IMG/VR virus record: IMGVR_UViG_3300034980_000108 | Location: 1 to 43,440 of that record | Source of the DNA: a virus | DNA: 43,440 nucleotides | Strand: one strand, 5' to 3' | Part shown: positions 11,063-35,970 of the stretch, piece after piece | Numbering within the stretch: the first letter of the stretch is position 1 | How the letters are laid out: every line of letters starts with the position of its first letter | The notes under the pieces: generated by a model | Databases searched by the model: none | What the model was told of the DNA's origin: nothing | The model's input: the letters and a program-made list of their open reading frames with translations, nothing else | Made by a program: the position numbers and the translations under genes

Positions 11063-11081
11063 TCCGACAACTGAGCTTTAT
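11063..11081 (-). promoter_or_regulatory. Phage RNA polymerase promoter after the RNA polymerase gene
   Basis: Minus strand ATAAAGCTCAGTTGTCGGA, one base different from the copy at 133-151. It sits between the RNA polymerase stop and the first class II gene, the T7 phi1.x position, so it is expected to start phage-polymerase transcription of the replication genes. Confidence 0.8.
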
Positions 11082-13736: not shown

Positions 13737-13823
13737 TGGTGCGGCTGGAGGGACTTGAACCCCCACTTCTGTTAAGAAACAAGGACCTAAACCTTGCGTG
13801 TCTACCAATTTCACCACAGCCGC
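13737..13823 (-). tRNA. tRNA-Leu (anticodon UAG), CCA encoded
   Basis: 87 nt with a perfect 7-bp acceptor stem GCGGCTG/CAGCCGC, discriminator A and encoded CCA, D-arm with GGTGAAATTGG, anticodon arm CAAGG-TTTAGGT-CCTTG (anticodon TAG), a long variable arm as expected for Leu, and T-arm GGGGG-TTCAAGT-CCCTC. It lies immediately beyond the integrase 3' end, where related temperate podoviruses carry an attP site matching a host tRNA. It may be a working tRNA, the attP core, or both. Confidence 0.9.
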
Positions 13824-13824
13824 A

Positions 13825-13882
13825 CGTCACAGCAGTCACATGCGCGTCACGCTCTCGCGTCACACGTCACAGTCCGCGTCAC
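13825..13882 (-). repeat. Cluster of GTGACG repeats between integrase and tRNA-Leu
   Basis: The minus strand has GTGACG at 13825-13830, 13845-13850, 13858-13863, 13865-13870 and 13877-13882, plus a TGTGAC at 13835-13840; most are TGTGACGY or GTGACGCG. Two more copies lie in the first codons of the RNA polymerase gene (around 13575-13595) and one near 13674. Candidate integrase arm-type or excisionase sites. Confidence 0.55.
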
Positions 13883-14934
13883 ATCGCCTTTTGCAGCATG
13901 TCACGGGCGTTCTCAAGGTCTCCCGGCAGTAGCTTCGCATACCGCAGGGTCATCTTGATTTCAGTATGACCCAGCCACTTCTGAACGATCATCAGGTCCC
14001 GCGTTCTGGCGTACAGCCGAGTTGCGAGGGTGTGGCGCATTGCGTACGGGATGAAACCTTCGTCATCGGACAGCGCCATGGTGTCACGGGCCCATTTCCA
14101 CGCGTGCCGGAAGCCACCTTTGGTAACCCAACAAAACGGCTGCGCGCCATTCTGAAATATCTGCCGCTCTAAGGCCTCCAAGGCCCTGTCGGTCAGCGGG
14201 ATAGTGCGGCGATGGCCGGACTTGGTCTTGGTGAGGGTCAGTAGCGATCCGCGCAGGTTCTTTGTTTCAATCACCGACATCTCGCTTTCCCGAGCGCCTG
14301 TGTCCATCAGCAGCGTGATGAAGTCGGCCCACCGCGCACCCGAGTTCTTGCGCTGTGGTGTATGGTCCCAGACCTCAGTGAACAGGTGGTGCAGCTCCTG
14401 AGCCTCTTCATCAGTCATAACCCGGTCGCGGGTGTTGTCCCCAATCTTGGGCTTGTCGAAGAACGGCTTGGTCTTGATGTTTCCCCGGCGATGGAAGTGC
14501 GTGAACATCTTCGATACGCAGGAACACCGGCTGGCGATGGTGCTGGCAGCGAGCGGGATCGCCTTCATATCCGCGATGTATTTATCCGCATCCTCAGTCG
14601 TGATGGTCGTGATGTCCCTGTCAGCCCCGAAGGCCTCGCAGGCAGCCTTCATGTTCGACCGCTGTGTCCGAGCACATCCAGCTGGCTTCCAGTACACCTC
14701 CCATGTGGTTTCGAGAGCTGCCTCCAGTAGGAGCGCGTTGGACCCGCCAGTCTTGGCTGTGGGTGCCTTAGGGTCTCCTCCGGTCAGCAGTATGTGTTCG
14801 ACTTCGGCGTGGCGCGCTTTCGCATCCGCCATGGTGCCGTTGAACTGCTGCCGGTGTCGTCTCAGCTTGCCTTCGTATCGTACGTGAACATCGATCTGAT
14901 AGCCGGGGCAGTCCTTGCGGTTTCGTATTCCCAT
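13879..14934 (-). CDS. int: Tyrosine recombinase / phage integrase
   Basis: 351 residues from ATG 14934 (MGIRNRKDC). The catalytic set is complete: Arg in DTGARESE, Lys in TKSGHRRTIPL, HxxR in YAMRHTLATRL, His in KWLGHTEIK and the nucleophile Tyr in TLRYAKL. The N-terminal 60 residues look like an AP2-type arm-binding domain (GYQIDVHVRYEGKLRRHRQQF). I chose 14934 because an ATGAGGA sequence containing the Shine-Dalgarno GAGGA overlaps the longer start at 14949, and the same leader precedes the gene starting at 17362. Predicted to integrate the phage, probably at a tRNA-Leu. Confidence 0.92.
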   Translation of the reverse strand: MGIRNRKDCPGYQIDVHVRYEGKLRRHRQQFNGTMADAKARHAEVEHILLTGGDPKAPTAKTGGSNALLLEAALETTWEVYWKPAGCARTQRSNMKAACEAFGADRDITTITTEDADKYIADMKAIPLAASTIASRCSCVSKMFTHFHRRGNIKTKPFFDKPKIGDNTRDRVMTDEEAQELHHLFTEVWDHTPQRKNSGARWADFITLLMDTGARESEMSVIETKNLRGSLLTLTKTKSGHRRTIPLTDRALEALERQIFQNGAQPFCWVTKGGFRHAWKWARDTMALSDDEGFIPYAMRHTLATRLYARTRDLMIVQKWLGHTEIKMTLRYAKLLPGDLENARDMLQKAM

Positions 14935-14960
14935 GTTGGTCGTCCTCATGTGTGTGAATT
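14935..14960 (-). repeat. Copy of the repeated 5' leader element (integrase)
   Basis: Minus strand AATTCACACACATGAGGA, then CGACCAACATG at the start codon. It is nearly the same as the leader of the gene ending at 17102 (CACACACATGAGGAACGACCAAATG), so two unrelated genes share a leader including GAGGA. Confidence 0.65.
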
Positions 14961-19904: not shown

Positions 19905-19966
19905 GGTGGTTAGCCTCGTTTTGGTCGGTTGGTGTGTGGTGTGAATGGTGAAGAGGTCGCAGCTGG
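19905..19966 (-). repeat. Copy of the repeated 5' leader element (long form)
   Basis: Minus strand CAGCTGCGACCTCTTCACC, ATTCACACCACACACCAACCG, ACCAAAACGAGG..., ATG. Shares AGCTGC-R-ACCTCT and CACACACCAAC with 17747-17806. Confidence 0.7.
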
Positions 19967-20182
19967 TTAGGCAGCGTTAAGCTGGGCTTGAAGAGCATGG
20001 ACAGCCGCCATGGTGAAATCGTCACTGTCTGGCATTGTGTGGATGGCAAGCTTGCTGTAGCCGCGATCGTGCTTAAGGCAGTCGATCTCATCCCGTGCTT
20101 CGGACCGCTTGAAGAAACCGTTGATCACTTCATGCTTGCCGACAAGATTGCAGCGACCTGTTACGACGAAATATTTTGACAT
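19967..20182 (-). CDS. First early gene, small hypothetical protein (71 aa)
   Basis: Begins MSKYFVVTGRCNLVGKHEV, contains GFFKRSEARDEIDCLKHDRG and ends HALQAQLNAA. It is the first gene downstream of the terminal non-coding region, so it should be among the first host-RNA-polymerase transcripts. Unknown function. Confidence 0.65.
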   Translation of the reverse strand: MSKYFVVTGRCNLVGKHEVINGFFKRSEARDEIDCLKHDRGYSKLAIHTMPDSDDFTMAAVHALQAQLNAA

Positions 20183-20447
20183 GGTAGAACCTCGTGATGT
20201 TTCGGCCTTGCTGGGCCATCGTCAGCGGGACAGCAAACAGCCCCGGACATCCTCCCCTAGATCAACGCTGCCAGACGTTCGCGCTGGCAACTCCCATCCG
20301 CCTTAGACCCTGTCGCTGTTTCCTCACCGTGCAGAGCCTGATGCCCTGTCTCACAGTGTCGCGATGTTGTCCTAAGACGCGGCGGACCTTTTATCTCTGG
20401 GGAGCCCGCTGCCCCGCCCCGCAGTCACTTGCTGCGTCGATGAACAC

Positions 20448-20476
20448 CTTAGACCACGGCTCGACCTTGATAGCAA
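20448..20476 (-). promoter_or_regulatory. Candidate host early promoter
   Basis: Minus strand TTGCTA (20471-20476), 17-bp spacer, TCTAAG (20448-20453), with an A-rich stretch upstream (AAAGATGTAAAAAAGATG) resembling an UP element. It points into the early operon. The GGTCTAAGG block recurs near 20303. A reasonable early host-polymerase promoter but not strong. Confidence 0.45.
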
Positions 20477-20802
20477 GTGCCACCTCGCATCTTTTTTACA
20501 TCTTTCTGCACCTAAAGGCTCTGCAGGCCTGCTATAACAGGCGATCACGTCATGCATTTATTTTGCAGCTGCAGGCTTGCGCCGTGCTATTGCTGCAGGG
20601 TTGCACCTTGTTTGACGCTCTGGGCAGGCCCTAGGCCCAGTTGAGATGCAACGCGCGCGCGAGCCTTCTATAGGGGCGATCCCGATCTGGGGAGAAAAGG
20701 GCAGGCATTCAAGCCGCTTTGGGTGACATCTGGGCACGTCAACTGGTCAGGCCTTAGGTCACCGGATGCCCTGCCAGTCAAGGGCTTGCCACCCCATTTA
20801 AG

Positions 20803-20840
20803 CTCAAGGTCTCTCAAGGGCTCTCAAGGTCTCTCAAGGC
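20803..20840. repeat. Tandem CTCAAGG array, 10-bp period
   Basis: Four copies of CTCAAGG at 20803, 20813, 20823 and 20833 on the plus strand (CCTTGAG on the coding strand). T7 has arrays of the heptamer CCTAAAG beside its terminal repeats; the resemblance in length, sequence and place is striking. Confidence 0.8.
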
Positions 20841-20959
20841 TGACAGGCTGATGATTTGGCGGCGTAAATGGTCCGGGCTCTGGGCTGTCAACTGGGCTGT
20901 CTCTGGGCTTGCATTTGGTGGTGGTCTCTGAGCCGATATCAGGCGATATCAAGGGTTGG

Positions 20960-21033
20960 CTCAAGGTCACTCAAGGTCACCGCTGGGCCCTATCTCTGGG
21001 CTTGCTCTGGGCTTGCTCTGGGCTTGCTCTGGG
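20960..21033. repeat. Second terminal repeat block: CTCAAGGTCA and TCTGGGCTTGC arrays
   Basis: Two copies of CTCAAGGTCA (20960, 20970), then three copies of the 11-mer TCTGGGCTTGC from 20995 with a partial fourth. With the 20803 array these frame about 120 bp and could mark sides of the terminal repeat. Confidence 0.75.
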
Positions 21034-21317
21034 TTACCGAAAGTCACCGGATGTAAGGTATACCTGACACCAAGAAAACAACAGTAGATCGCTCCCTTGT
21101 ACTCGTATTGAGCATAAGGGTCGGGACCTACGGTTTCATTGGGCGCGCATTAGATACATTATGTGGCGCGGTGTGAGCTATAGCAGGGCTGCCGGGCACC
21201 TTGTGACGCATGATGTGACGCGGTTGGTGCTGGCCCTTGTCATCTGGGCGGCTTCGAGACCCCCAAGGGGGAAACCGAGGACGCGGGAATATCATAAGGT
21301 GCCTCGTTGATATGAAA

Positions 21318-21530: not shown

Positions 21531-21549
21531 TCCGATAACTGAGCTTCTC
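21531..21549 (-). promoter_or_regulatory. Phage promoter after terminase (phiOR-like)
   Basis: Minus strand AGAAGCTCAGTTATCGGAGG, same core as 133-151. It lies within 70 bp of the terminase stop, where T7 has phiOR (right-end replication origin promoter). The following GGAGGGGGCC fits a T7-type initiation region. Confidence 0.75.
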
Positions 21550-21595: not shown

Positions 21596-23353
21596 CTACA
21601 GTCTCAAAGAGAAGCCATCTCGCGACTTCTTCCGTTGGGTCCTGTGTGGTCCTCGGTGTCGAGGGTCCACCTGATCTTGGATGAACTGCTTCATGGCCTT
21701 GTCCATGATCTTGTCCTTGGCCTTCTGTGCGGCCTTCTGGGCACCCTGAGCCAACGTATCGACCCAGTAAGCTACGATCCCTGCTAGGGCATCCAACCTA
21801 TCGTCATGGCGCAAGGCCCCTTTGACCTTGGTGATACGGGTCATCTGGTGGAACAGGCGGTACTGGGTTGCCTGCTCTTCCGTGTACGACTGCACCATCA
21901 GATCATCATCACGGACTACTTCCTCATCGATCACCAGACGGTGCTGGTTCATGATCGGTTCGAGAGTGTCGATGATGCGGAGTTCCTTCTGTCTGTTGGA
22001 ACGTACGCTCTCGATCAGACAGGGGTACTCAATGGCCGTCAGGTGGGGCTGGAGGAGCTTCTCGAACATTCCGTCACCGAAGTTCGTCTCGACGAGAATG
22101 ACGTTCACAGCCTGATCCTTGGCGTCCTGAGCGATACGCTTGAGGATGTGGTCCTCATAGCCGCCTTGGGTACCAACCATCTTGGTGATGAAGATCGTGG
22201 CGTTCAGCACTTTGCCTACCGCCCATGTGGTCTCATCCTTACCTCTACCGGCAGGGTCAACGAACATCGCCGCACCCGTGTAGGGCTGGTAGGCGCTCTC
22301 GTCCACGTAGGCGGGGCTGTAGAAGCCGTCACCGTCCATTCCTGGGGTATGTATGTCATGGTATAGGTTGGCGCGTTTCGGGCCCCACGCGACTGAGGCT
22401 GGACCCTTGGTACTATCGAGAGGCATGACTATCAGGTCACGCAGTCTCAGAGGGTATCTGTCAGCATCACTGAGGGATGTGTCCAGCAGGAACTGGAGGG
22501 CGAAGCCAGAGGCACCGTAGGAGAGCTTGCGCTCTGCCACTTCGTCCTCATCGAACCGCTTCGGGTCCAGAGACTTCCCGATCTCGTGGCCCGCTTTCAT
22601 CAGCTTGTGGACGTACGGAGCCAGTCGGCGACCCATGCGCTTGAAGTACGCTTCGGTCGGGATCAGCACCGGCCAGATGCGGATGTCGTACCCGCGCTCT
22701 GGGAGCTTGTTGTAGAGAGACTGCTCGGTCTGGGGTGTCCCAAGGTAGATGACGTTGCCACCGGGCTTCAGGACCGCATCGAACTCCTTGATGAGTTCAG
22801 CGAGCTTGTCCCGCATGTTCTGGGTCTCAGAGTTCTTGGGGACCTCAATGTCATCTGCGACGATGGTGTCAGCACGAGAACCTGTGAGCTGCCCGAAGAT
22901 ACCTACGGACTTCACAGAGGGAGAACCCTTGGCAGCCGCAGGCCCCACATCGAACGCCTCATTGGAGGTACGCTGTCCGTGTCGGGTTGCGAGGTGCTGG
23001 AGGATGTCCATCTCGTTGATGATACGCTTGGTGAAGGTTGAGAAGGCCGTAGCGCGATCCTCACCGGCAGAGACCACCATGATCGAGTGATCGGGGTCTC
23101 TCAGGAGGAGCCAGATTACGAAGGCCACGGTGACGTAGGACTTCCCTACCCCACGGAAGCCTTCGATGATCCTTCGGCGTGGGCCGTACTGCAGGTAGTC
23201 AGCCATGTCCAACTGGACCGGCGTAGGCACTGGAAGTCCGAGGTGGGCCCAGACGATGTGGAGGAAGACCTTGAAGTCTTCGTACATCCTCCAGACCTCG
23301 GGATGGTCAGGGTATTTGGTCTCCCAATGTGGGTCGACCTTCGGTGCTGCCAT
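21596..23353 (-). CDS. Terminase large subunit (T7 gp19-like)
   Basis: 585 residues, T7 is 586. ATPase with Walker A EGFRGVGKS (residues 64-72), Walker B-like ADTIVADDIEVPKN, and motif III YLGTPQTEQS; nuclease-domain acids in AAMFVDPAGRGKDETTWAV and later HDDRLDALAGIVAYW. Drives DNA into the prohead with the small subunit and portal. Preceded by AAGGAGTTCACACATG. Confidence 0.96.
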   Translation of the reverse strand: MAAPKVDPHWETKYPDHPEVWRMYEDFKVFLHIVWAHLGLPVPTPVQLDMADYLQYGPRRRIIEGFRGVGKSYVTVAFVIWLLLRDPDHSIMVVSAGEDRATAFSTFTKRIINEMDILQHLATRHGQRTSNEAFDVGPAAAKGSPSVKSVGIFGQLTGSRADTIVADDIEVPKNSETQNMRDKLAELIKEFDAVLKPGGNVIYLGTPQTEQSLYNKLPERGYDIRIWPVLIPTEAYFKRMGRRLAPYVHKLMKAGHEIGKSLDPKRFDEDEVAERKLSYGASGFALQFLLDTSLSDADRYPLRLRDLIVMPLDSTKGPASVAWGPKRANLYHDIHTPGMDGDGFYSPAYVDESAYQPYTGAAMFVDPAGRGKDETTWAVGKVLNATIFITKMVGTQGGYEDHILKRIAQDAKDQAVNVILVETNFGDGMFEKLLQPHLTAIEYPCLIESVRSNRQKELRIIDTLEPIMNQHRLVIDEEVVRDDDLMVQSYTEEQATQYRLFHQMTRITKVKGALRHDDRLDALAGIVAYWVDTLAQGAQKAAQKAKDKIMDKAMKQFIQDQVDPRHRGPHRTQRKKSRDGFSLRL

Positions 23354-23473: not shown

Positions 23474-23809
23474 CTAAGCGGCTTGTGGGGCCGTGGGTTG
23501 TCGTACTCGTTCCCAGCGGCGTTTCGTTCGGTTCCATTGATGGGTACCGGCGCTCTCTCGGGCACGCTGGACCGCTCGTATTCGGTTGATGGTTTTATGG
23601 CACGGGAAGACGTGGCGACGTGCCCAGTTGGGCATCTCTTTGACCCAAGCAAGCAGGTCCTCGCCGAGGTCGTTCAACCACTTCCCGACAATGCCGAGTA
23701 AGCAGAAGAGGACTATCGGGATGATGCAAGGGAGGAAGAGCGTGATGCGCAGGGTGTTGCAGATGATGACCAGTGCGCGGTCGAAGAAGTGTTCGAGATT
23801 ATGGAGCAT
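23474..23809 (-). CDS. Membrane protein, possible lysis factor (spanin position)
   Basis: 111 residues from ATG 23809. One long or two short membrane segments (ALVIICNTLRITLFLPCIIPIVLFCLLGIVG), then a basic cytoplasmic/periplasmic tail rich in Arg (RIRAVQRARESAG). It sits where T7 gp18.5 (Rz-like spanin) lies, but no Rz similarity or lipobox seen. Overlaps the Tad2-like gene by 11 nt. Confidence 0.6.
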   Translation of the reverse strand: MLHNLEHFFDRALVIICNTLRITLFLPCIIPIVLFCLLGIVGKWLNDLGEDLLAWVKEMPNWARRHVFPCHKTINRIRAVQRARESAGTHQWNRTKRRWERVRQPTAPQAA

Positions 23810-24023
23810 CGTAGAGGTCCCAGTCAGAGGAAAGGAGATCGCCCTGTGACGCTGTCCATGGGACAAGGTCGCCTTGAGCGGTGTGGATGTAGATGTACGG
23901 GAGGGTCATCTTGGAGTGAGCATCGGGGCGCTGCATCTGCAGCCACAGCCCTTTGCCATTCCAACCCTTTCGGAGGACCTTGCGGCCCTCCTTGAGTAGA
24001 TACAGGATGGATGAGAAGTTCAT
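23799..24023 (-). CDS. DUF2829 / Tad2-like protein (candidate Thoeris anti-defence)
   Basis: 74 residues from ATG 24023. The whole length follows the DUF2829 pattern: MNFSSILYLLKEGRKVLRKGWNGKG, then LPYIYIHTAQGDLVPWTASQGDLLSSDWDLYD. Proteins of this family (Tad2) have been reported to bind the cyclic ADP-ribose-type signal of Thoeris and block abortive infection. The gene lies in the late packaging cluster between small and large terminase; most anti-defence genes are early. Family from motif memory; activity is inference. Confidence 0.8.
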   Translation of the reverse strand: MNFSSILYLLKEGRKVLRKGWNGKGLWLQMQRPDAHSKMTLPYIYIHTAQGDLVPWTASQGDLLSSDWDLYDAP

Positions 24024-24030
24024 TGGTGTC

Positions 24031-24276
24031 CTAGTTGATGAGGTCTCGGATCGCGTCCGGGTCACCTTCATCTTCGATAGAGTTGATAGTATCCGCGAGC
24101 GCGTTCAGAGCTGTGTTGTCTGTGTCGCGTGCGGGCTCGATGCCGTTGTCCTTGAGGAACTTGATGGCCTGAGCGAGCATCTGGGGGCTCGGCTCTTCCT
24201 TCAGTGCCTTGCCAAGGGCTTCAGCTACGGTCGCGTGCAGGAGCTGCAGGACCTTTTCAGATGCGGAGTTACTCAT
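24031..24276 (-). CDS. Terminase small subunit (T7 gp18-like)
   Basis: 81 residues; T7 gp18 is 89. Helical, with LLHATVAEALGKALKEEPSPQMLAQAIKFLKDNGI, the family's typical DNA-recognition helices. Position two genes before the large terminase. Overlaps the preceding membrane gene by 8 nt. Confidence 0.8.
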   Translation of the reverse strand: MSNSASEKVLQLLHATVAEALGKALKEEPSPQMLAQAIKFLKDNGIEPARDTDNTALNALADTINSIEDEGDPDAIRDLIN

Positions 24277-24463
24277 CCGACTGTGCCTCTAGCGGGTTGC
24301 CGTAGATGGTGTCGATGCGTTCTCGAACATAGGTCAGATCACCTTTTATGTTCTCGATGTCTGCGCGGTTGGCAGAGACCGTCCCCCAGAGGAGGATAGT
24401 CCCTGTCAAACCTGCGACCGCAATACCGGCTACGAACTCGCCGATACCTTGGAGCTTTTCCAT
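24269..24463 (-). CDS. Small membrane protein, holin-like
   Basis: 64 residues: an N-terminal hydrophobic segment (FVAGIAVAGLTGTILLWGTV) followed by a coiled coil (ANRADIENIKGDLTYVRERIDTIYG). T7 has its class II holin (gp17.5) at this place; the single span plus coiled coil also resembles XhlA. Holin role plausible. Confidence 0.65.
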   Translation of the reverse strand: MEKLQGIGEFVAGIAVAGLTGTILLWGTVSANRADIENIKGDLTYVRERIDTIYGNPLEAQSDE

Positions 24464-24723
24464 TAGATGGAAGGCTCCTCAGGCCACACTACGTCCGCTG
24501 GAGAAGCGAAGGCGTTGGTGATGTCGCGCAGGGACTTGCGGTAAATCCACAAGGCTGCACGGCTGCCCATGTCACGTTGGAACGGGCTATCAGGCAGCAC
24601 CTTCCAGTCACAGGCAGAGAGCCGTGAGTTCCGCTCGTCGCGGATCGCATCAGCTTCAGGACCTTCCCAAGGGTCAGCAATTACTTCGGGCAGGTCTTCA
24701 GGTTCGATCACTGGATCGTCCAT
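24463..24723 (-). CDS. Tail-fibre assembly chaperone-like protein
   Basis: 86 residues. RDERNSRLSACDWKVLPDSPF followed by WIYRKSLRDITNAFASPADVVWPEEP is the ending shared by many phage tail-fibre-associated proteins (R..L..CDWT.LPD..L...W..YR..LR). It is directly downstream of the fibre gene, as expected for a fibre chaperone. Confidence 0.75.
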   Translation of the reverse strand: MDDPVIEPEDLPEVIADPWEGPEADAIRDERNSRLSACDWKVLPDSPFQRDMGSRAALWIYRKSLRDITNAFASPADVVWPEEPSI

Positions 24724-24753: not shown

Positions 24754-27700
24754 TTACGCGAAGGTGGTCGTAGGACCGTCCTTGATGGATTGAATAGACA
24801 CGGAGATGTGAGACGCCGCGAGGGACGCTGCGATCTTCGTGGTACTGTAGGTGCCTCCAGAGAGACATCTGGATGCTGAAGAACTGCACGCCCGGTTAGC
24901 TGCAAGGTGCAGCTCCATCTTTACAATGCCGTCAGCAGGCCAGCCTCCTGTCCCAAGCGCTGGGACATCCACGTACTGGACGCTCGTGAAGGACTTGGTC
25001 ACAAGCTCCGTCGCCAAGTATGTAGAAGGAAGGTGGCTGGTGTTGGAGGTGGTACTCATGAACCGGATGTGGTTGTCAGTTACTTCGACCTGCCCGTTGC
25101 CCGGCGTGAGTACGCGGCCCAGCTCTTTCCAAGAGAACCACTCAAACGAGTTGTACTCAGCCTCTTGGGTGTAGCTGTACTCAACCTTCACTCGGTCACC
25201 TTCGACCACCGTGATCGTGGGCGTCTCGATCTTAATGGTCTCGAACGAAGCAATCGCGAAGGCGTCTGCGAGCGGGTACCCAGCTTTCGCCCAGCCTTCC
25301 GAGGCTGAGGTTGCGATACTGTGTTCACCTAGCGAGCCCCCAACCATGTGGATGGTGCCGATAGTCGCATCACCGATCACTGCAGAACCGATCTGGGCGT
25401 TTGTCATATGTACGACACCGCCGATAACCTCGAAGACAGCCACTGGTGCGTCACCCGGAGAACTGGGGTCTGCAATCAGGAACTGATCAGCGAGGATGCC
25501 GAACGAAGAAGTAGCCCCATCGTTGGACAGCCCGAAACCAGAGATGTTTCCGTTGACGTCCTGTCGCAGGGCGTACATGGCATTGGCGGAGCCTTGAGCA
25601 TCCAGAGCCACCGCACTCGTCGTGACGATATCAGCTTCAGCATCGCCCATCCGGGTCGTGAGAGCTGTAGTGTCAGACGCGTTTGCGCTGTCGGCTGTGG
25701 TTCTGGCGGACGCTTCAGTGGCTACCTGTGCCTCAATGTCTAGGGCAACAGCGCCCACTTCTTCGACAGACATGCTACGCACTTCGACGTGGCCATTGGT
25801 TCCTGTCCAATCGGCTCGGACATAGATACCGAAGCGGAGGTAAGGCGTGAAGGCAGAGACGCAGGTGTACTCCAACTCTACGGTTTCCCACTGGTATTGC
25901 GTGGTGAAACTGAAGCTGAAGCCCGCAGGTGCCCCCACGTAGCCGTAAGAGCTACTCAGTGACCGGAAGTGCCCGTTGATAGCTGTACCTGAACCCATGT
26001 CAGTCCCGGTGTACCGCATCACAACACGCGCTCGGTAGCGACGGCCCTCCACGTTAGGGACTGTCTGCCGCATGTAGAGGTATTTGAAGGTTGCGCCGTC
26101 AGGAACTGCATAGGCCAGAACGCCATGGGCGGCGTTCGGGGCACCGTAAGTGCCCCAGTGTTGACCTGTGGTCGCCAACGGGTCTCCGTACGTTAGATTT
26201 TGGAAGTCCTCTAGCCCTACCTCAGGGATGAGATGGATTGAAGAACTCCCGTACATCTTAGCGCGCAAGACGTTCACATCAAAGGCACGGGCACTCTCTT
26301 CGTCTGAGATTGCAGATGCGTTGGTGATGATGTCAGCTTCAGCATCTCCCATGCTTGTTGTCAGGCCTGAGATGTCCGAAGCCATCGCGCTGTCAGCTGA
26401 GGCTCTCGCAGATGCTTCAGAGACTATTGCTGCGCTATTCGTGACCACGCGGCTGAGACCTTCAGCGACGTCACGCACCCGTAGGGACAAGATGCGGGCC
26501 TCACCTCCGGCAGTCTTCTTCATGCCGAACCTGACGTTCTTTGCGAGGTTCGCCTGAGAAAGTGCGGACACCCCGGTCGCTGGATCAGCCGTGTGGCCCA
26601 CAACGACTGTGACCGTATGTCGGCCCACAGCCAACTGACCTTGGGTGATGTGGGTCCACCAAGTTCCTGCAAGAGGAGTACCTGTGTCGTCCAGAGAGGC
26701 TACCTGCGGGTAGATCGTCGCTGGTGACACGGCCTCAACCTCGTACACTGCTTCGTAAACCGAGTGGGCCGTCCACGGGTATGTCGACTTACTCCGTGCT
26801 GAGGAATTATCAGGCAGGTCCAAATACGGAAGCCCTGCAGCATCAGTCCCTATCCACGATGCAGGAGCATCTGGCAGACTTCCTTCCGGGCCCTGCCCCG
26901 TAGTCCACGTCGTTGAAGTTGGCCGCACGCTTCCGTGCCCGTGTGCTTCCCCAAAGTTGGCTTGGAGTACAGTGAACTCAGCTGCGCGGGCGCTTGTCTC
27001 ATCAGAGATCGCTGCAGCATTCGCGATGATGTCAGCTTCAGCATCTCCCATGCTTGTCGTCAGGCCCGAGATATCAGAAGCCATGGCACTGTCAGCCGAA
27101 GCCCGTGCAGATGCTTCAGTCACCACAGACGCCTCTACAACATCATCAGCTGCTTCAAAGGCTGTGGTAAGTGCCGTCACATCAGATGCTCTTGCAGATG
27201 CCTCATCGGAGATAGCGGCAGCATTGGTGATAACAGCAGCCTCCGCACCCCCCATACGGGTCGTGAGACCTGAGATGTCCGAAGCCATCGCACTGTCAGC
27301 GGAGGCTCTGGCAGATGCTTCAGAGACCACAGACGCTTCCGTGTTCAAGTAGGACTGGCCGAGTTCCTCGACAATCATTTCTTGGAAGTGGACGTCGCCG
27401 TTGTGTCCTACCCAGTCTCCGCGAGTGTATACACTCGGACGGAAGTAAGGCTGAGTGGCAGCTGTCGCATCGATTGACACCTCAAAGGTGAAGGTGTGCC
27501 AAGCGCCTGTGCTGGTGAACTTTAGGGCTGTCGTGCCTACGGTAACCGGTAGGACATCACCCGCATAGTCGTAGTTAGCGGTAAGCACGCGCCCGAACAC
27601 GCTCATGGCCTCTACGTTCAACCCACCTGTGCCCATATAACGGGCTCGGAGGGTGACCCGGTAGCGCCTACCCTCGATGCACTGATAGACAGGCCGCACA

Positions 27701-29250
27701 CTGAGATAGTGAAATTGGGCGTCGGGCGTAGTGGCTGCGTAAACACCATCGACGGGATCATTCACTACGGTCCAAAAGGTCGTAGGTCGCGGTAGGATGT
27801 CCAGTGGACTTCCTTGGTAATGCTCGTTCCAATCATCGAACCCGCTCTGGAAGTCAAAGCGGTCTGAACCGCCACCTTTGAGGCGAGCTTCGAGTACGTT
27901 CACCTCAGAGGCTCTCGCTGAACTCTCATCCGAGATCGCGGTAGCGTTGGTGATGATAGCAGCTTCAGCCGTATCGAGATCGGTGGAGACTGCAGCAATC
28001 GCATTGGCGTTGGCGCTGTCCCCTGTGGAGCGTGCCGTGCTTTCGGCGACGATAGATGCCTCAGCGTCATCCAGAGCAGCCTGCACACCAGAGACCGCTG
28101 TGGCCCTCGCGGTTGCTTCGTCGGAGATAGCCGTCGCGTTGGTGATGATGGCCGCTTCCGCCGTACCGAGATCGGACTGCACACCAGAGACCGCTGTAGC
28201 CCTTGCGGAACTCTCAGTAGCGATAGCTTCATTGGCAGCGATGATGTTCGCCTCTGCTGTCCCCATAGAGGACTGGAGGGACGTAACGTCAGACGCAATG
28301 GCCGCATCAGCGTTCACACGGGCCGTAGTCTCAGAAGCTACTGTAGCATCGGTGGCTGCTAGTGCAGCAGACACGACGCCTAGAGCCGACGCATTGGCGC
28401 TGTCAGCATCCGCGCGCGCTGTCTGCTCTGCCACGATGGCAGCCGCATTGGTACCAGCAGAAGCCACAACAGCGTCGATGTTCGACTGGAGGGCTGTGTC
28501 TCCGGTAGACCGGGCGAGAGCCTCAGCCACCAGTGCGTCCGCGTTTTCTTGGACTGCCGTCTGGCGATCTGTAATCTCCTGTGTGAGAGCTGAAGCCGTG
28601 GAGGCCAGTGCAATCAAGTCAGCGTCAATCTGGCTCTGGATCGCAGCCACATCGGCAGCTCGGGCTGCCGCCTCAGCTGAGAGTTCAGCCTGTCGTGTTG
28701 CAGCCTCAGCAACCACCGCATCGATACGGGACTGTGTCTCCGCAGCAATCGCCGCGATCCGAGCCAAGCTTTCGGCTGCGATACTGGTACCGTTCTCATC
28801 GGTGGTTGAGAGCAGCTCAAGGATGACTGGGGAGCTCCTAGAGGCACCTTCGATCTGCTCGTTGATCCACTGCTCAGTGACAACCGAGGAGCCGTTCGGG
28901 TTTGTGACCAGCACGTTGCCAGCCAAGATGCCATCAGTGACACCGTCCAGCAGCTCTTGACAGATGTAGAAGTTCTGCAGCGTGGCCGCATCCAGATCGC
29001 CAGCGAGCAGTGTTTGCCCGTCTGAGAAGTCTGTGATGCGGTTCACCTTATCGGTGACACGGGCTACGCGGACCACCTCCCCTGAAGCTGGCGTGTTGAC
29101 CAGCTCCAGAGACGTTGGGGATATCCATCGGTAGCCTGCGAGGGCACCATCCACGAAGACAAACATGTGTGACTTCTGGAGGTAACCCACGGTGATGGAG
29201 AAGTTCTTCGTCGATCCATCAGCGACGTATTCGGCGTATGATAGAGCCAT
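24754..29250 (-). CDS. Large mosaic tail fibre
   Basis: 1498 residues (T7 gp17: 553). N-terminus (about 1-130) is the T7 tail-fibre anchoring domain (SYAEYVADGSTKNFSI, YICQELLDG). Then long Ala/Ser-rich coiled-coil repeats of the type VTEASARASADSAMASDISGL about 150-465, 640-770 and 930-1000. Three folded inserts lie at about 470-630, 770-930 and 1000-1160; the first and third are related (VEGRRYR, RGDWVGHNGDVHF vs RADWTGTNGHVEV) and look like carbohydrate-binding beta sandwiches. About 1235-1300 is a lambda-J-like (DUF1983) segment (FGLSNDGATSSFGILADQF). Receptor recognition role. Confidence 0.9.
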   Translation of the reverse strand: MALSYAEYVADGSTKNFSITVGYLQKSHMFVFVDGALAGYRWISPTSLELVNTPASGEVVRVARVTDKVNRITDFSDGQTLLAGDLDAATLQNFYICQELLDGVTDGILAGNVLVTNPNGSSVVTEQWINEQIEGASRSSPVILELLSTTDENGTSIAAESLARIAAIAAETQSRIDAVVAEAATRQAELSAEAAARAADVAAIQSQIDADLIALASTASALTQEITDRQTAVQENADALVAEALARSTGDTALQSNIDAVVASAGTNAAAIVAEQTARADADSANASALGVVSAALAATDATVASETTARVNADAAIASDVTSLQSSMGTAEANIIAANEAIATESSARATAVSGVQSDLGTAEAAIITNATAISDEATARATAVSGVQAALDDAEASIVAESTARSTGDSANANAIAAVSTDLDTAEAAIITNATAISDESSARASEVNVLEARLKGGGSDRFDFQSGFDDWNEHYQGSPLDILPRPTTFWTVVNDPVDGVYAATTPDAQFHYLSVRPVYQCIEGRRYRVTLRARYMGTGGLNVEAMSVFGRVLTANYDYAGDVLPVTVGTTALKFTSTGAWHTFTFEVSIDATAATQPYFRPSVYTRGDWVGHNGDVHFQEMIVEELGQSYLNTEASVVSEASARASADSAMASDISGLTTRMGGAEAAVITNAAAISDEASARASDVTALTTAFEAADDVVEASVVTEASARASADSAMASDISGLTTSMGDAEADIIANAAAISDETSARAAEFTVLQANFGEAHGHGSVRPTSTTWTTGQGPEGSLPDAPASWIGTDAAGLPYLDLPDNSSARSKSTYPWTAHSVYEAVYEVEAVSPATIYPQVASLDDTGTPLAGTWWTHITQGQLAVGRHTVTVVVGHTADPATGVSALSQANLAKNVRFGMKKTAGGEARILSLRVRDVAEGLSRVVTNSAAIVSEASARASADSAMASDISGLTTSMGDAEADIITNASAISDEESARAFDVNVLRAKMYGSSSIHLIPEVGLEDFQNLTYGDPLATTGQHWGTYGAPNAAHGVLAYAVPDGATFKYLYMRQTVPNVEGRRYRARVVMRYTGTDMGSGTAINGHFRSLSSSYGYVGAPAGFSFSFTTQYQWETVELEYTCVSAFTPYLRFGIYVRADWTGTNGHVEVRSMSVEEVGAVALDIEAQVATEASARTTADSANASDTTALTTRMGDAEADIVTTSAVALDAQGSANAMYALRQDVNGNISGFGLSNDGATSSFGILADQFLIADPSSPGDAPVAVFEVIGGVVHMTNAQIGSAVIGDATIGTIHMVGGSLGEHSIATSASEGWAKAGYPLADAFAIASFETIKIETPTITVVEGDRVKVEYSYTQEAEYNSFEWFSWKELGRVLTPGNGQVEVTDNHIRFMSTTSNTSHLPSTYLATELVTKSFTSVQYVDVPALGTGGWPADGIVKMELHLAANRACSSSASRCLSGGTYSTTKIAASLAASHISVSIQSIKDGPTTTFA
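25600..28800 (-). repeat. Internal repeats in the fibre gene
   Basis: The fibre gene contains many imperfect nucleotide repeats of about 90-200 bp, each coding for units such as ASARASADSAMAS, ISDEASARA and TNAAAISDE. Nearly identical stretches recur at 26280-26430, 27000-27120 and 27180-27330. Such repeats allow length changes by recombination. Confidence 0.75.
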
Positions 29251-29286
29251 AGGTTTTCCTTAGGGGGCACTAGGCCCCGGAGGGCT

Positions 29287-32200
29287 CTAGTCTTCTGGTT
29301 CTTCTGGAAGCACCTCAGTGGCGCGGTTGAGTAGGGCTTGGACGGCGACATGCTTTCCCAGCGGAGCGAAGGCCCCGACTAGGTTGTTGACGTCGCTGTC
29401 GGAGAAGGGTTGGCCGGTGAACAAGTCACCAGTGGCACCGATCATGGAGTAGAAGCGGGAGCGCGAGGCGTTGCCCGATAGAGGGTCACCTGCGAGCCCA
29501 GAGGCACGAGACTTGGAGAAGATGGGGCCGATCTCTTGGCCACCGATCTCGTCGATCCCGGCTTCATTCAGAGCGGACAAGCCGCCATCAATCAGGTTCG
29601 GGAATACGGAGGCGTGAGCTGAGTAGTAGAAGGCAGCCTTGGCCGTCTCATCCCACGTCATGCGCTCCTCAAGGAACTCACGGCGCTCTCGCTCGTCATC
29701 CAGTGCAGCACCTTGGGCAGCCACGCGGGCCATGTATCCAATGGAGCCACCGAAGGACATCGCGATGGTCTCTGCAGCAGCACGGCTGTCATGAACATTC
29801 ATGGCGAAACCGGCATGCTTTGAGAAGGCGTTCAACGGGAACCCCAGAAATTGGAAGATCAACTGCAGGAACGGTGAGCGACGCATGATCAGCGCCTGTC
29901 CACCAAGGTCTCCCTCAAGCACCAGTCGACGTGTGTTACGGTCGATGGCGTTGATCCATACGTTCAGAGCTTCAGGGTCATCCCAGCGAGCCAGATCGAA
30001 CTCAGGCACCGACTGTCCGGTATCAGGAGACTTGGTGTCTTCTGTACGGCGCAGCTGGTTACTGATCCGGGTCCACATCTCATCATCGATACCCATCGCT
30101 CTCATGCGACGAGGCTCGTAGAGAGGCTTGCCTTTACGCGCAGCCTTCACCCAGTCCTGTGCATCTGCAGTGGCGATTGCCATCCGCAAATACTCAGAGA
30201 GTGGGCCCATGCCTGACCAGCGCGACGTGGCGTTGGCAGACTTACGAGTGAGCGTATCAATGCGTTCCTGCACCCTGTTGGCAGGGTCGATCATGTCCTC
30301 AAAGTCACCCTCGTACCTGTTGGCTTTCGCCTGCAGACTGGAGCGGAGCTGTGTGGACCCGTGGCCCATGATGACATCGGACAGGGCGAAGAGGCTCTTG
30401 GATGCTTCAGGATCACCGGCTCGTGCCTTCTTGTAGTAATCAAGGAACGCAGGGAACTGCCTGAACAGCCGGATCGGGCCAACCTTCACCAATGCGCCAC
30501 CGAACTCTGACAACCCAAGGAAGCCCACGTTGGACATCAGGTTGGCGAAGTTGGAACGCCTGATCTGGTTCATGATGAAGTTGTATGTGTCCGACTTGAA
30601 CATGGAAGGCTCGGCACGCCCGAGGATCATGTCGCGCATGTGCCCCAGTTGTTCCCGTTCTTTCCTGCCGCGCTTCTGGCGTGCTGCAGATGTACCGGAG
30701 GTGTTGTCCCCGATCTTCCTGAGCATGCTGTCGAACTCTGAGATGGAGCTGAAGCCGGCACGGAGGAACCCGGCGTAGCCTGAAAGCTGTCGGCGGTATG
30801 TCATACCAGTCAGCTCTGCATCCCACTCGAACATGTCGAGCAGGTCTTTGTCGTTCTCAGCGTCAAGGTGCAACGTGAGACGGCTGCGGGCCCGCGGGCT
30901 CTCAGTGCCTCCACCTTTCTTCACAGGTGCAAGGAGGTCCATCATCATGTCGATGGCATCCTCGATATTGTCACCGAACTCATGTCCATCGTTGAAGGTG
31001 TCCCGCACGATCTCCCGAGCGGCGTTGCGATCTGCAAAGCTCACAGGCTTGTGGGGACTTACGTTGTCCTTCATGGCCGGGTTGGTGAGCTTCTCGACAG
31101 TCTTGGCATACTGGTTGGCGATGCGCCGTGCCATCTGGTATCCAGTCAAAGGGTCCTTGATGCGACCAGTGGCGTCCGGTTTCCCAGAGCGCCCAAGGTT
31201 GAACCGTTCGGCAGCAGCTTCGAGCCACTCCCGGTTGGACCGAAAGACAACATCAGTGAGGCGATTGGCCACACCCTTGTTGCCGCCCATTGTATTCTGG
31301 ATGCGCCGGAAGCCGTCTTGGCTGAACATCCGCATCATGTAGGAAGGATCACTCTCGATCTCAGCCCACTCATCAAGGCCCCTGCCCGCATCTCCTTGGG
31401 AGCCGGGGCCGTTGTGGAACTCATTCTTCACATACGAAAGAGTGTCGTCGTTGGCTGCTCTCCATACGCGGACAGCGGCGTTGACGTTCGCATCGGTGCT
31501 TGTTCTGACACCGGAGAGGACCTGCCCCACCAGTACGTTGAACTCCTGCTTCTGCAGTGTGGTAGGAGCGCCTGTCCAGCTGAGGTTGCCCTGAGCCTTG
31601 AAGTAGGCGCGCATGTGCGACCGGCCCTCACGAACGAAGGAGCCGATGGCGTCATTGATACGACGCTGGGCCTCGAAAGCTGTCTGACGCTGGGTGCCGC
31701 CGGAGAACGGGTTCCAGCTGAGGCGAGCCCCAAGGTCACGGGTGACGCTGTCGACAGATCGCTGCAGGTAGTTGAGAGGTGTCCCGAAGACGCCGATGCC
31801 CCATGATGTACCGGGGATCGTTGCTTGGAGTTGCTCAGGGGCACCTTCAGCGACCCACGTACCAGAGCCGTCTTCGAGTTCCCGCATGATAGGCTTGAGC
31901 TGTGCAGCACCCACGGAGCCACTTTCCTGCCCGAAGTAATCCACAGCATCAGCTGCAGCGTTGTCGAGAGACTTGACGTCAGCTTCATCCAACCCACGAC
32001 CAAGGGAACCAAAAGCTCCCGAGAGGGTCGTTGAGCCGATCACAGCGATGGCCGTCTGGGCCCAAGTGGTGGCAGGATCGACTTGATGTCGGACAAGCTC
32101 CAGAGGTGTATCGGCAGCGAAGCCAGCACCAGCAGCGCGCATTGCGTTACCGAGGCGTGTGGCTCCACGTCCAACCTTCATGATTGCTCCGGCAGTACCA

Positions 32201-32763
32201 CCAGTAAGCAGGAAGGCAGGGTCGAAAGCGTTGACGGCCATGCGGGCTGCGAAGCCTCCAAAGCCATGGTCACTCTGGGAGATCGCAATGTCTCTCAGGT
32301 TTCGAGCGGCGTACGTTTCCGCGATTGCGTCCATATCGTCGGCAGAGTGGGCAGTGGCGAGACGGTCGTAGAACCGTTGATCTAGCTGCCACCTGTCTGC
32401 AGTGGCCACAAGCTCCTCAGCAGTCGGGGTGTATTCGGGTGCGTTCCCCGGCATCATTGCAGAGCCACCGCGACGAGAGCGCGTCTCGTATTCATCGGCT
32501 AGGTTGCCACCGAGCAGGTCCTGCCGGAACAGGTCGTCAGTGAAGGGGAACTCCAAGCCTCTGAAGCTCCCGTCTGTGTATCGCTGCACCCGGACCCAAG
32601 GGGTCTGCTGTTGTGCAACAGATGTTTCCCCCTCGGCCAGTGGCGGGAGGACCATCTCAGAGACCTTCTCTTCATCGCGCTCGGGGGTAGCTTCGGCCTC
32701 AAGATCGCCGGGGGCGTACTGAAGGACCTGCCCGAGGGCTGTGAGATATTCATCTCGTTCCAT
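29287..32763 (-). CDS. Internal virion protein (T7 gp16-like)
   Basis: 1158 residues; T7 gp16 is 1318. Identified by position (last of the internal core genes, before the fibre) and architecture: hydrophobic stretch GFGGFAARMAVNAFDPAFLLTGG, long helical middle, C-terminal GFPLNAFSKHAGFAMNVHDS. I do not see the lytic transglycosylase domain that starts T7 gp16. Forms part of the ejection tube. Confidence 0.75.
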   Translation of the reverse strand: MERDEYLTALGQVLQYAPGDLEAEATPERDEEKVSEMVLPPLAEGETSVAQQQTPWVRVQRYTDGSFRGLEFPFTDDLFRQDLLGGNLADEYETRSRRGGSAMMPGNAPEYTPTAEELVATADRWQLDQRFYDRLATAHSADDMDAIAETYAARNLRDIAISQSDHGFGGFAARMAVNAFDPAFLLTGGTAGAIMKVGRGATRLGNAMRAAGAGFAADTPLELVRHQVDPATTWAQTAIAVIGSTTLSGAFGSLGRGLDEADVKSLDNAAADAVDYFGQESGSVGAAQLKPIMRELEDGSGTWVAEGAPEQLQATIPGTSWGIGVFGTPLNYLQRSVDSVTRDLGARLSWNPFSGGTQRQTAFEAQRRINDAIGSFVREGRSHMRAYFKAQGNLSWTGAPTTLQKQEFNVLVGQVLSGVRTSTDANVNAAVRVWRAANDDTLSYVKNEFHNGPGSQGDAGRGLDEWAEIESDPSYMMRMFSQDGFRRIQNTMGGNKGVANRLTDVVFRSNREWLEAAAERFNLGRSGKPDATGRIKDPLTGYQMARRIANQYAKTVEKLTNPAMKDNVSPHKPVSFADRNAAREIVRDTFNDGHEFGDNIEDAIDMMMDLLAPVKKGGGTESPRARSRLTLHLDAENDKDLLDMFEWDAELTGMTYRRQLSGYAGFLRAGFSSISEFDSMLRKIGDNTSGTSAARQKRGRKEREQLGHMRDMILGRAEPSMFKSDTYNFIMNQIRRSNFANLMSNVGFLGLSEFGGALVKVGPIRLFRQFPAFLDYYKKARAGDPEASKSLFALSDVIMGHGSTQLRSSLQAKANRYEGDFEDMIDPANRVQERIDTLTRKSANATSRWSGMGPLSEYLRMAIATADAQDWVKAARKGKPLYEPRRMRAMGIDDEMWTRISNQLRRTEDTKSPDTGQSVPEFDLARWDDPEALNVWINAIDRNTRRLVLEGDLGGQALIMRRSPFLQLIFQFLGFPLNAFSKHAGFAMNVHDSRAAAETIAMSFGGSIGYMARVAAQGAALDDERERREFLEERMTWDETAKAAFYYSAHASVFPNLIDGGLSALNEAGIDEIGGQEIGPIFSKSRASGLAGDPLSGNASRSRFYSMIGATGDLFTGQPFSDSDVNNLVGAFAPLGKHVAVQALLNRATEVLPEEPED

Positions 32764-32781
32764 GCTGTCTCCTAGTCTGGG

Positions 32782-34962
32782 TTAGTACCGCCTTCCTGCG
32801 CCGCGTTGGGGCAAACTGGAAGACATGTCGATATCGGTGGATGGGTTGAGAGCATCCTCGGCAGCCCGTTGGTTGCTTGCGGCATGCTCGGCTTGCTCAA
32901 GATTGGCGAGGTGGCGGTCCCGTACTTCGGACGCGCGTCGGATAGCCTCGGCTGTGTAGAAGTTCACACTCCCGTCAGGAGCATGGACGATGTATGCGTT
33001 CCCACCAGCGTGATCCATGGTGTACCCTTCGATGCCTTCAGTGCCTGCCAGATCGGCGAGACCGTTCAGGAATGAAGTGGAACGCTCATGCCACTTGGTA
33101 GGTGTTTCTCGGGACATAGTAGGGTCGGCCATAGGGCCATTTGGAAGGGCGAGGATGGAGCCGTTCACGACTGTGTGCTCAGACTGGTAGTCAGCCTGCG
33201 CCATCGCGATTGCGTCTTCCTGTCCCATGTACGCGGTGTATTCGTGGACGCGATCGCCTACCCAAGCCTGAGCGGCGTTGTACGCAGGGTCGACAGTGTT
33301 CGGGTCCAGACGTCTCCAGAAGAGACCACGACGCCCGCCAGTTGCCGGGTCATCGACTTCAAGGTTGCGCACAGTGTCGCGAAGAAGCCTGCTGGTGTCT
33401 TGGAGACGGGGTCTGTCCATATCCACGAACGCGACAGCTCTTGTTGCAGCTTCAGCCGGGTCAAGATCGGGGTCGCGCTGGATGTAGCGATCCATCTGTT
33501 CGAAGACGGAACGTGAGCGAGGGTCAGTGACGTACCGCCGAGCTGTGACTGGGTCCATGTTTGAATACATGGTGTAGCCTTGGGCGACATCAGGGGCACT
33601 GGAAATAATCCCTTCTACGGTCATCATACCGCCAAGGCCATCGAGATACCGCTGGAGCATCGGGTCGTGAAGGTCACCATCAGCGAGGCGCTGGGTGTAC
33701 ACTCGGTACTTCTCACCCTCTTCAGCCGGGACGGCCAAGGGGTTCTCTCCGAGGTACTGGTCACGGAAGTATCGGGTGGCACCTTCGATCCGCTCGTTGC
33801 GGCTGTAGTGGACATTCGTACCTGTGGCGTCATCAGTGAGATCGATGTCGGTAATCTCCTCGCCCCGGCCAGCAACCAGAAGGTCTATGGCAGAGCTGTC
33901 GCTTTCAGCGCGAGAGGTACGGCGGAACCATCCAGTGTGTTGTTGGCGAGCTTGGGTCTGTCGGTTGTTCTGATCCGAGTACCACCGCTCATGAACCATG
34001 GACTGCATGCTCTCAGGGAGGCTCTCGAAACGAGGGTCACTGTGAAGCTGATCCAGTGTCGCACCTTCGCGGATGACATCATAGAGATCAGTCCGGGTCT
34101 GGATGTGACCGTCTTGTGCGTTCTGTCGCGCACGGAGGTCAGCCTGTTCACGATAGCCTGCGACTTCTGACATCACATTGGCATCTTCAGCCAGCGTCGG
34201 GATGCCGTCAGATCGGGACAGGTTCGCGAGGCTCTCCACGTAGTCAGCGTCACCGCGTTGGGCGGCAGCGCGCATGCTGGAGATCAGGATGCCTGTGATG
34301 TCTGTGCCACGAAGGCCCAGCTCGGAACTTCTGAGGCTCGCTACGGCCTGTCCGAGATCGCCAGTGTCTTCGAATACAGTCTGGAACTCACGACCGGCAG
34401 CCTGCACCCGAGTGGCTTCAGCTTCCTGAAGTCCCGAACGCATCTGAGCCTGAGCCCACTGGGCCCGGTACCGATCCATCTGCTCGTTCATACCGCGAGA
34501 GAAGAAGCTGTCCGAGGTGTCCGAAGGGTTCTCCTGCAGATACTGCTGGACCGCCTCTCCGTCGCTTGGATCAACACCAGCGGAGATCATCGCTGAGGCT
34601 GTGTCGTCAGCTGCTACGCGCCCGCGGTGGACCTGTAGAGCTGGGAGGATGTACGGGTTCTGCCGGAAGCGTTCTGCCAGAGGTTCACCCTCAAGGGCCT
34701 CACCGATCTGGTCGGCTGTGTACCCTTGGAAGGATGACTGTATCTGCGCGGCTTCATCAGCCCCGGTGCGCCGTAAGTCAGCGATGCGTTGATCGTGCAT
34801 CTGCGTGGCAGCACCAGTGGCAGCTCCAGTGAACTGTGCGAGACTGTCGGCCAACTGGAGGAGGCCTGTGTCTTCGGTAATGGCCGCGGGGGAGACATGA
34901 ACGCCTCCCTGAAAGCCACCCCTACGGATGCCCTCAGGGCCTGAAAGTTTCTGTTGTGGCAT
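32782..34962 (-). CDS. Internal virion protein (T7 gp15-like)
   Basis: 726 residues, T7 gp15 is 747. Helical, with tetratricopeptide-like spacing (NEQMDRYRAQWAQAQMRSGLQEAEATR, EFQTVFEDTG). Starts MPQQKLSGPEGIRR and ends with low-complexity SSSLPQRGAGRRY. Assigned by position and size. Confidence 0.75.
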   Translation of the reverse strand: MPQQKLSGPEGIRRGGFQGGVHVSPAAITEDTGLLQLADSLAQFTGAATGAATQMHDQRIADLRRTGADEAAQIQSSFQGYTADQIGEALEGEPLAERFRQNPYILPALQVHRGRVAADDTASAMISAGVDPSDGEAVQQYLQENPSDTSDSFFSRGMNEQMDRYRAQWAQAQMRSGLQEAEATRVQAAGREFQTVFEDTGDLGQAVASLRSSELGLRGTDITGILISSMRAAAQRGDADYVESLANLSRSDGIPTLAEDANVMSEVAGYREQADLRARQNAQDGHIQTRTDLYDVIREGATLDQLHSDPRFESLPESMQSMVHERWYSDQNNRQTQARQQHTGWFRRTSRAESDSSAIDLLVAGRGEEITDIDLTDDATGTNVHYSRNERIEGATRYFRDQYLGENPLAVPAEEGEKYRVYTQRLADGDLHDPMLQRYLDGLGGMMTVEGIISSAPDVAQGYTMYSNMDPVTARRYVTDPRSRSVFEQMDRYIQRDPDLDPAEAATRAVAFVDMDRPRLQDTSRLLRDTVRNLEVDDPATGGRRGLFWRRLDPNTVDPAYNAAQAWVGDRVHEYTAYMGQEDAIAMAQADYQSEHTVVNGSILALPNGPMADPTMSRETPTKWHERSTSFLNGLADLAGTEGIEGYTMDHAGGNAYIVHAPDGSVNFYTAEAIRRASEVRDRHLANLEQAEHAASNQRAAEDALNPSTDIDMSSSLPQRGAGRRY

Positions 34963-35522
34963 TAGCCTTGTCCTACTGCTGCTGCGGCGTTCATGCTCTG
35001 ACGCATCGAGTATCCACTGGCAGCTGAACTGCCGAGCTTCACGCCCAGAGCCATGAGGCTTGGACCCTTGCTCTGCTGGCGGGAGTTGATGCGAGACTGG
35101 GCGGCGTTACGGGCACCACGAGTATTCAGGCGGTGACGTTGTCCATCCAGTTCGGCATTACGGTTGATGTTGGCAACATGCTGACCTGACTGGAAGCCGA
35201 GGTCGCGCTCAAGGGCGGCTGCGGAGAGGCCACCGGCCCCACGTTCACCTGCAGAAGCCCGTGCGGCTCCACGAGCTGCGAGACCTTCTTGGCTTGCGGC
35301 GATCCGCTGTTGGGTGGCGCTCTCTTGAGCAGCCATGCTGTCGAGGTTGGCAGCTTCGATGTCACCCTGATAGGCGTCGATGGAAGCCTCTTGGTTGGCC
35401 GCGAAGGCGTCATTCATTTGGTTCGCCTGTTCCACCTGCCCCATATGTCCGACAGCAGCGGACGCCATGGACATGACTGTGGAGGCGATAGCGATTTCAG
35501 TTACACCGGGCACATAGCACAT
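34962..35522 (-). CDS. Internal virion protein (T7 gp14-like)
   Basis: 186 residues; T7 gp14 is 196. MCYVPGVTEIAIASTVMSM start with Met-Cys, Ala/Gln-rich coiled coil and a hydrophobic C-terminal GVKLGSSAASGYSM match T7 gp14 in layout. In T7 it inserts in the outer membrane during ejection. Confidence 0.8.
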   Translation of the reverse strand: MCYVPGVTEIAIASTVMSMASAAVGHMGQVEQANQMNDAFAANQEASIDAYQGDIEAANLDSMAAQESATQQRIAASQEGLAARGAARASAGERGAGGLSAAALERDLGFQSGQHVANINRNAELDGQRHRLNTRGARNAAQSRINSRQQSKGPSLMALGVKLGSSAASGYSMRQSMNAAAAVGQG

Positions 35523-35970
35523 AGCGGAACTCCTTGAACTGGGCCCCGAAGGGACCGAAAGGTTGAGGGTCTCCGATCTTGCAGCCCAGAGCTTCGAGGT
35601 ATCGGATGTGGAGGGTATTCTTGGCGTAGACGTGATGCTTCAGCTCGCCGTACTGATCGTACCAGTGGGCCAAATAGGTTCTGCCTAGAAGCAGCATGGC
35701 CTTGGCGGCGCTGAAGGTTGCCAGTTTGTCAGTCCCCATGAGCCATGGAGACCAGTGGTCACCGTCCTCGAAGATACCGAAGGCGGCGATAGGCTCTCCG
35801 TCCATAAGGGCAACGAGAGAACCGGGGAGCGCCAGAACGCGCCGAGCGAACACCTTGAATGGGTGTCGCCCGGACGCGGATAAGAACTCCTCGAAGTCAG
35901 CTGGCCGCAGATTGTCGGAGATGAACTCCAAGTCTCGGCGGGTAGCTGCAGTGACTGTGATGTTAGACAC
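35497..35970 (-). CDS. GNAT-fold protein in the gp13 position
   Basis: 157 residues. GSLVALMDGEPIAAFGI, SAAKAMLLLGRTYL and YAKNTLHIRYLEALGCKIG follow an acetyltransferase-like fold, as in T7 gp13 (internal core/morphogenesis protein) which ends with a similar NTSHIRFLKTIG stretch. Whether it binds acetyl-CoA is unknown. Overlaps both neighbours. Confidence 0.8.
   Translation of the reverse strand: MSNITVTAATRRDLEFISDNLRPADFEEFLSASGRHPFKVFARRVLALPGSLVALMDGEPIAAFGIFEDGDHWSPWLMGTDKLATFSAAKAMLLLGRTYLAHWYDQYGELKHHVYAKNTLHIRYLEALGCKIGDPQPFGPFGAQFKEFRYVLCARCN

Follow-up and report, generated by a model that had tools for sequence, protein, structure and literature searches.

A compact Tad2-like gene between the terminase genes of a T7-like phage: a probable late-expressed sponge for ADPR-type defence signals

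The window, i.e. the complete 43,440-base virus record analysed here, represents a T7-like phage with a tyrosine integrase; no near relative was found for it at the nucleotide level in the phage collection. Its replication and transcription genes encode a single-subunit RNA polymerase, primase/helicase, DNA polymerase and exonuclease, and its virion genes comprise T7-type portal, scaffold, capsid, tail tubular proteins, internal virion proteins, tail fibre and large terminase (TerL). The features surrounding the Tad2-like gene are as follows:

21531-21546, minus strand: promoter-like repeat AAGCTCAGTTATCGGA, just past TerL (exact copies at 133-148 and 11063-11078)
21596-23353, minus strand: T7-type TerL, large terminase (PF22530, E 2.5e-37; phrog_38, E 1.2e-114)
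23474-23809, minus strand: TM-containing 111-aa protein (strongly hydrophobic stretch), without family match
23799-24023, minus strand: compact Tad2-like gene (PF11195/DUF2829), 74 aa (Pfam, phmmer, AF2 model and fold match)
24031-24276, minus strand: small terminase TerS (DNA_Packaging_2), 81 aa (PF11123, E 2.1e-14; phrog_891, E 3.3e-13)
24269-24463, minus strand: small one-TM protein in the holin position of T7 gp17.5, without family match
24463-24723, minus strand: tail fibre assembly chaperone-like protein (PF16778, E 1.1e-14)
24754-43211, minus strand: late structural run of portal, scaffold, capsid, tail tubular, internal virion and tail fibre proteins (PHROG assignments)

In the direction of the minus strand, the tail fibre gene is followed by those of the fibre-assembly protein, the small TM protein, TerS, the Tad2-like protein, the TM-containing protein and TerL. 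The original prediction had placed the Tad2-like gene between the two terminase genes with exact coordinates; to this the minus strand, not given there, and the TM-containing ORF at 23474-23809, which also lies between the Tad2-like gene and TerL, have to be added. The start codon ATG occupies positions 24021-24023 and the stop codon TAA positions 23799-23801; the encoded protein reads MNFSSILYLLKEGRKVLRKGWNGKGLWLQMQRPDAHSKMTLPYIYIHTAQGDLVPWTASQGDLLSSDWDLYDAP. The mechanical ORF finder set the start at 24071, 16 codons further upstream, but this 90-aa reading was rejected, as the 16 codons that it adds overlap TerS and show no homology; an AGGA is present just 5' of the internal ATG, and homology starts at that ATG. 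The GC content of the gene is similar to that of its neighbours. Compared with its closest relatives, dN is approximately 0.3 and dS near or at saturation; the gene is thus maintained under purifying selection.

Seven nucleotides separate the TerS stop from the Tad2-like start, and the next gene (23474-23809) overlaps the Tad2-like stop by 11 nt, so that there is no room for an intergenic promoter at this gene. The only repeated promoter-like motif found, the 16-base AAGCTCAGTT(A/G)TCGGA, is present in three intergenic copies in gene direction (past the RNA polymerase gene, past TerL and at 133-148), lies before and after the structural/packaging run and does not occur within the structural run. 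By gene order, the copy at 133-148 would precede the portal gene if the contig ends join, as is supported by the exonuclease-portal order in the related IMG/VR record G006. Scans for sigma-70 promoters and terminators yielded no more than expected by chance. Because the promoter-like motif flanks the run and is missing inside it, late transcription of the Tad2-like gene is inferred; the proposed late character of this gene, which is packed into the structural/packaging run, is therefore supported.

Several further features of this phage deserve mention. The DNA polymerase gene (3030-5759, minus strand) is interrupted within its conserved AKTFI/FLYGAG motif; the gap contains an ORF of the endonuclease VII type (3653-4111) as well as a group I intron match that is full-length but below threshold (3582-3819; 36.9 bits at a gathering threshold of 50, E 1.6e-7). 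At 13737-14949 (minus strand), a tRNA-Leu (TAG) with encoded CCA is located beside the tyrosine integrase gene, and the phage is temperate, with a likely tRNA-Leu attachment site; in a search aimed at host assignment, the genome collection contained no exact copy of a 32-mer taken from the 3' end of this tRNA-Leu. In the scaffold-capsid gap, a tRNA-Asn (GTT) is accompanied by another tRNA match of lower strength (40151-40311, minus strand). Past TerL, a long stretch without assigned gene (19905-21127) contains clustered CCTTGAG and GCCCAGAG repeats that are reminiscent of the short repeats adjoining the T7 terminal repeats, and repeated blocks of about 80-170 nt at a spacing of about 200-720 nt are located at 25622-28175 within the tail fibre gene.

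The Tad2 family comprises phage proteins that soak up bacterial alarm molecules. The 74-aa protein matched the PF11195 "Tad2-like" profile over positions 1-72 of 73 (E 2.6e-23) with a score of 82.7 bits at a curated cut-off of 25 bits, which is far beyond chance. In phmmer searches against solved structures, it matched SptTad2 (of the solved chains, the one matching best in sequence), the Myroides prophage Tad2 (ModTad2), SPO1 Tad2 and HgmTad2/AcrIIA7; all of its solved relatives are signal-sponge Tad2 proteins or HgmTad2/AcrIIA7. The AlphaFold2 model of the monomer (pLDDT 92.6) superimposed on the SPO1, Myroides, HgmTad2 and SptTad2 structures with Z values of 11.7-12.9 and rmsd values of 1.2-2.0 Å over 70-72 residues; the values were Z 12.9 and 1.2 Å over 71 of 74 residues for SPO1 Tad2 (8wje) and Z 12.4 for the ModTad2-hisADPR complex (9eib), versus Z 6.4 or less for the next unrelated fold. 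Membership in the Tad2-like family and possession of the Tad2 fold are thus secure, and the DUF2829 assignment originally proposed holds at the level of profile, sequence and fold. In PHROGs, the family is entered as of unknown function, and no PADLOC model matched this gene or any of nine further window proteins that are small or unassigned. A weak likeness was also observed between the Tad2 model and the neck protein of phage 812 (PDB 8qkh chain S; Z 6.4, rmsd 3.1 Å over 68 residues); common ancestry of this virion domain and the sponge fold is possible on the basis of the model.

The structural comparison revealed that the window protein belongs to a compact form of Tad2. It shares with SPO1 Tad2 (Gp34.65; 8sme, 8smf, 8smg, 8wje) the fold, the RxGWNGK loop, the Trp in beta4 and the SQxD-x-L-x-x-DW helix, but SPO1 Tad2 has about 13 extra residues after beta2 without SKMTLPY, and SQTD in place of SQGD. 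ModTad2 (9eib with hisADPR; 8v3e) likewise agrees in fold and in WT-x-S...D-x-L-x-x-DW, including the Thr after the beta4 Trp, and deviates by a loop about 13 residues longer and by SVSD instead of SQGD. RxGWNG and D-x-L-x-x-DW are common to all three proteins. HgmTad2/AcrIIA7 (8kbi-8kbm) and SptTad2 (8wjd) have the same fold; both, unlike the window protein, possess a long insertion of about 20-30 more residues that is linked to cyclic-dinucleotide binding (SptTad2 has RPGDELSKTFLP at the position of RPDAHSKMTLP). Indeed, in the 74-aa protein the segment from beta2 to the next core strand, which is prolonged to this differing extent in the solved members, is short and contains HSKMTLPY, and the insertion between beta2 and beta5 that carries the CDN site in the HgmTad2/SptTad2 subtype is missing. 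According to a review, cyclic-dinucleotide binding is located in the Tad2 insertion, and the pockets for ADPR signals are built from the beta1-beta2 loop, the beta3-beta4 loop, beta4, the beta4-alpha3 loop and alpha3 (PMC12043709). By sequence, the pocket-forming segments GWNGKG, VPW, SQxD and DW appear to be kept; since these are present and the insertion is not, the protein is predicted to lack the CDN site and to retain the ADPR-type site.

Compact homologues with the HS[KR]MTLPY signature were found in IMG/VR contigs, Acinetobacter phage XC38 and Mycobacterium phage Curiosium; identity to the window protein is 54-72% in the viral contigs and 65% in XC38. Unlike the window, these are other phage types, in which the neighbours of the gene extend from terminase and portal genes to those of ribonucleotide reductase and primase. 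Among 61 compact homologues, R18, W21, N22, G23, W56, S59, D62, L64, D67 and W68 are invariant; within the SKMTLPY segment, which is absent or interrupted in the solved Tad2 members, S37, M39, L41, P42 and Y43 are invariant and K38 and T40 nearly so, although the homologues derive from unrelated contigs, and the segment could serve a separate role. The window protein retains all 20 subfamily-invariant residues. The Thr of SQTD, conserved in at least 90% of the compact homologues, is replaced by Gly (G61), and the protein is placed on a fairly long branch of the tree; given both features, it could differ in which ligand it binds or how tightly.

TerS and TerL of the relatives examined mostly lie side by side or have an unrelated gene between them; the interval is a variable insertion spot. 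A Tad2 gene is absent from 44 of the 45 IMG/VR records with related TerL, many of which are fragments; the single exception, G006, has it between scaffold and capsid. The gene is not found in the same place in relatives, as would be expected of a core packaging gene, and is accessory rather than a fixed part of packaging. A neighbourhood survey of 62 non-redundant IMG/VR loci (PHROG tallies, two neighbours on each side) revealed no fixed gene neighbourhood for compact Tad2 among them, and in these mixed viral contigs the compact genes also stand next to genes for replication and nucleotide metabolism. The idea that Tad2 genes in general are biased towards late regions was considered and discarded: such a bias is present in the T7-like lineages examined and not in the mixed set.

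The original prediction had regarded the lateness of the gene as an anomaly. Once other T7-like phages were examined, its placement proved to be ordinary: in every T7-like lineage examined that carries a Tad2-like gene (a set of examined cases rather than a census), this gene lies in the late region. In the Klebsiella Drulisvirus phages KMI6 and KPPK108.2, a long-form Tad2-like gene is located directly behind the capsid gene; in Pectobacterium phage Koot (Phimunavirus), it is located between internal virion proteins, in Proteus phage PmP19 downstream of TerL, and in Pseudomonas phage MR4 near the right end, past TerL, lysis genes and tailspike. Drulisvirus SU503 is colinear with KMI6 and KPPK108.2, with exactly the Tad2-like gene missing, and many Klebsiella relatives align to the KMI6-type capsid region with about the same share missing; the three Drulisvirus loci with this clean one-gene presence/absence constitute a natural pair. 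The long forms of KMI6, KPPK108.2, Koot, PmP19 and G006 constitute a supported clade (97/87) apart from the compact form of the window; at least two kinds of Tad2 have therefore been taken up by T7-like phages. KMI6, Koot, PmP19 and G006 resemble the window in their late-region insertion and differ from it in Tad2 form and insertion point, and to judge from the sequences their genes and that of the window are independent acquisitions. In P22-like and other temperate phages, too, the Tad2 gene has lysis or terminase genes nearby; in the N4-like phage XC38, it is flanked by the ribonucleotide reductase and primase genes.

Based on these data, the window protein is proposed to be a sponge for a TIR-made ADPR signal, with a probability of about 0.6. 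Tad2 anti-Thoeris sponges are homotetramers in which two pockets for ADPR signals are shared between subunits. The fold and assembly of the window protein are most likely those of SPO1 Tad2 (the model being that of a monomer), and it would sequester the nucleotide signal of TIR-domain defences (Thoeris; gcADPR- or His-ADPR-type) in a putative pocket formed by the beta1-beta2 loop (GWNGKG), beta4 (VPW) and the loop and helix after it (ASQGD...DW). Inserted in the variable TerS-TerL spot, the gene would be co-transcribed with the late structural genes, and its product would appear roughly together with the capsid protein. Roberts et al. (PMC12578639) documented that, with staphylococcal phages, Thoeris is set off by the major head protein and the alarm is dependent on activation of the late genes; streptococcal Thoeris likewise senses capsid protein. 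Given such triggering of Thoeris, a late sponge would arrive together with the signal, would mop it up as it appears and would thus be timely; for the present phage, this timing argument is an analogy to the staphylococcal and streptococcal systems. Both this triggering and the late Tad2 genes kept by other T7-like phages indicate that the late placement is not odd, and the objection of lateness is answered without a role in virion delivery or at lysis; nothing was found that points to either of these two roles, which had been suggested previously.

Instead of gcADPR or cyclic dinucleotides, the compact subfamily might bind a different product (of TIR, of CBASS or of another source), the SKMTLPY segment replacing the insertion and reshaping the pocket. 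The conservation of this segment in the 61 homologues exceeds the need of a plain linker, solved members do not possess it intact, and Tad2 ligands already vary (gcADPR, His-ADPR and cGG, according to PDB titles); however, the segment may be structural only, and those forming the pocket in the gcADPR- and His-ADPR-binding members are retained, so that this reading is regarded as rather unlikely. Similarly tentative is the broader notion that the compact SKMTLPY form constitutes a distinct class of sponges, widespread and with a ligand of its own, and that T7-like phages repeatedly couple sponges to late capsid expression because late proteins set off the defences being countered.

A role in packaging or in the virion (as terminase accessory, neck or decoration protein), with the fold shared by chance, would be in keeping with the position within the packaging run and with the weak match of the phage 812 neck protein (8qkh_S, Z 6.4), but the absence of Tad2 from nearly all TerL-related records, the usual adjacency of TerS and TerL, the otherwise colinear Drulisvirus capsid regions without the gene and the different insertion site in each T7-like lineage make it improbable. 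Still less credit is given to Cas9 inhibition, an activity reported for the relative deposited under the name AcrIIA7: this full homologue (8kbi, 9kzr) was also solved with cADPR and cGG (8kbj, 8kbk), i.e. as a sponge, and late expression would come too late to stop Cas9 from cutting the entering DNA. That the gene is a non-functional passenger retained by chance, as the long branch and the change at a nearly fixed position might suggest, is very improbable as well in view of the low dN relative to dS and the complete set of subfamily-invariant residues.

With regard to the ADPR-signal sponge favored here, the points of interest are the repeated late placement and the compact subfamily. "Sponges are early genes" is an unsafe rule, as at least two Tad2 clades have been inserted in the late regions of T7-like phages at different points. 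Lacking the cyclic-dinucleotide insertion, the compact form represents a minimal Tad2 scaffold and is useful for asking which part of the family sets the choice of ligand. Late insertion fits a capsid-sensing defence and leads to a testable prediction, namely that the timing of the sponge follows the timing of the trigger.
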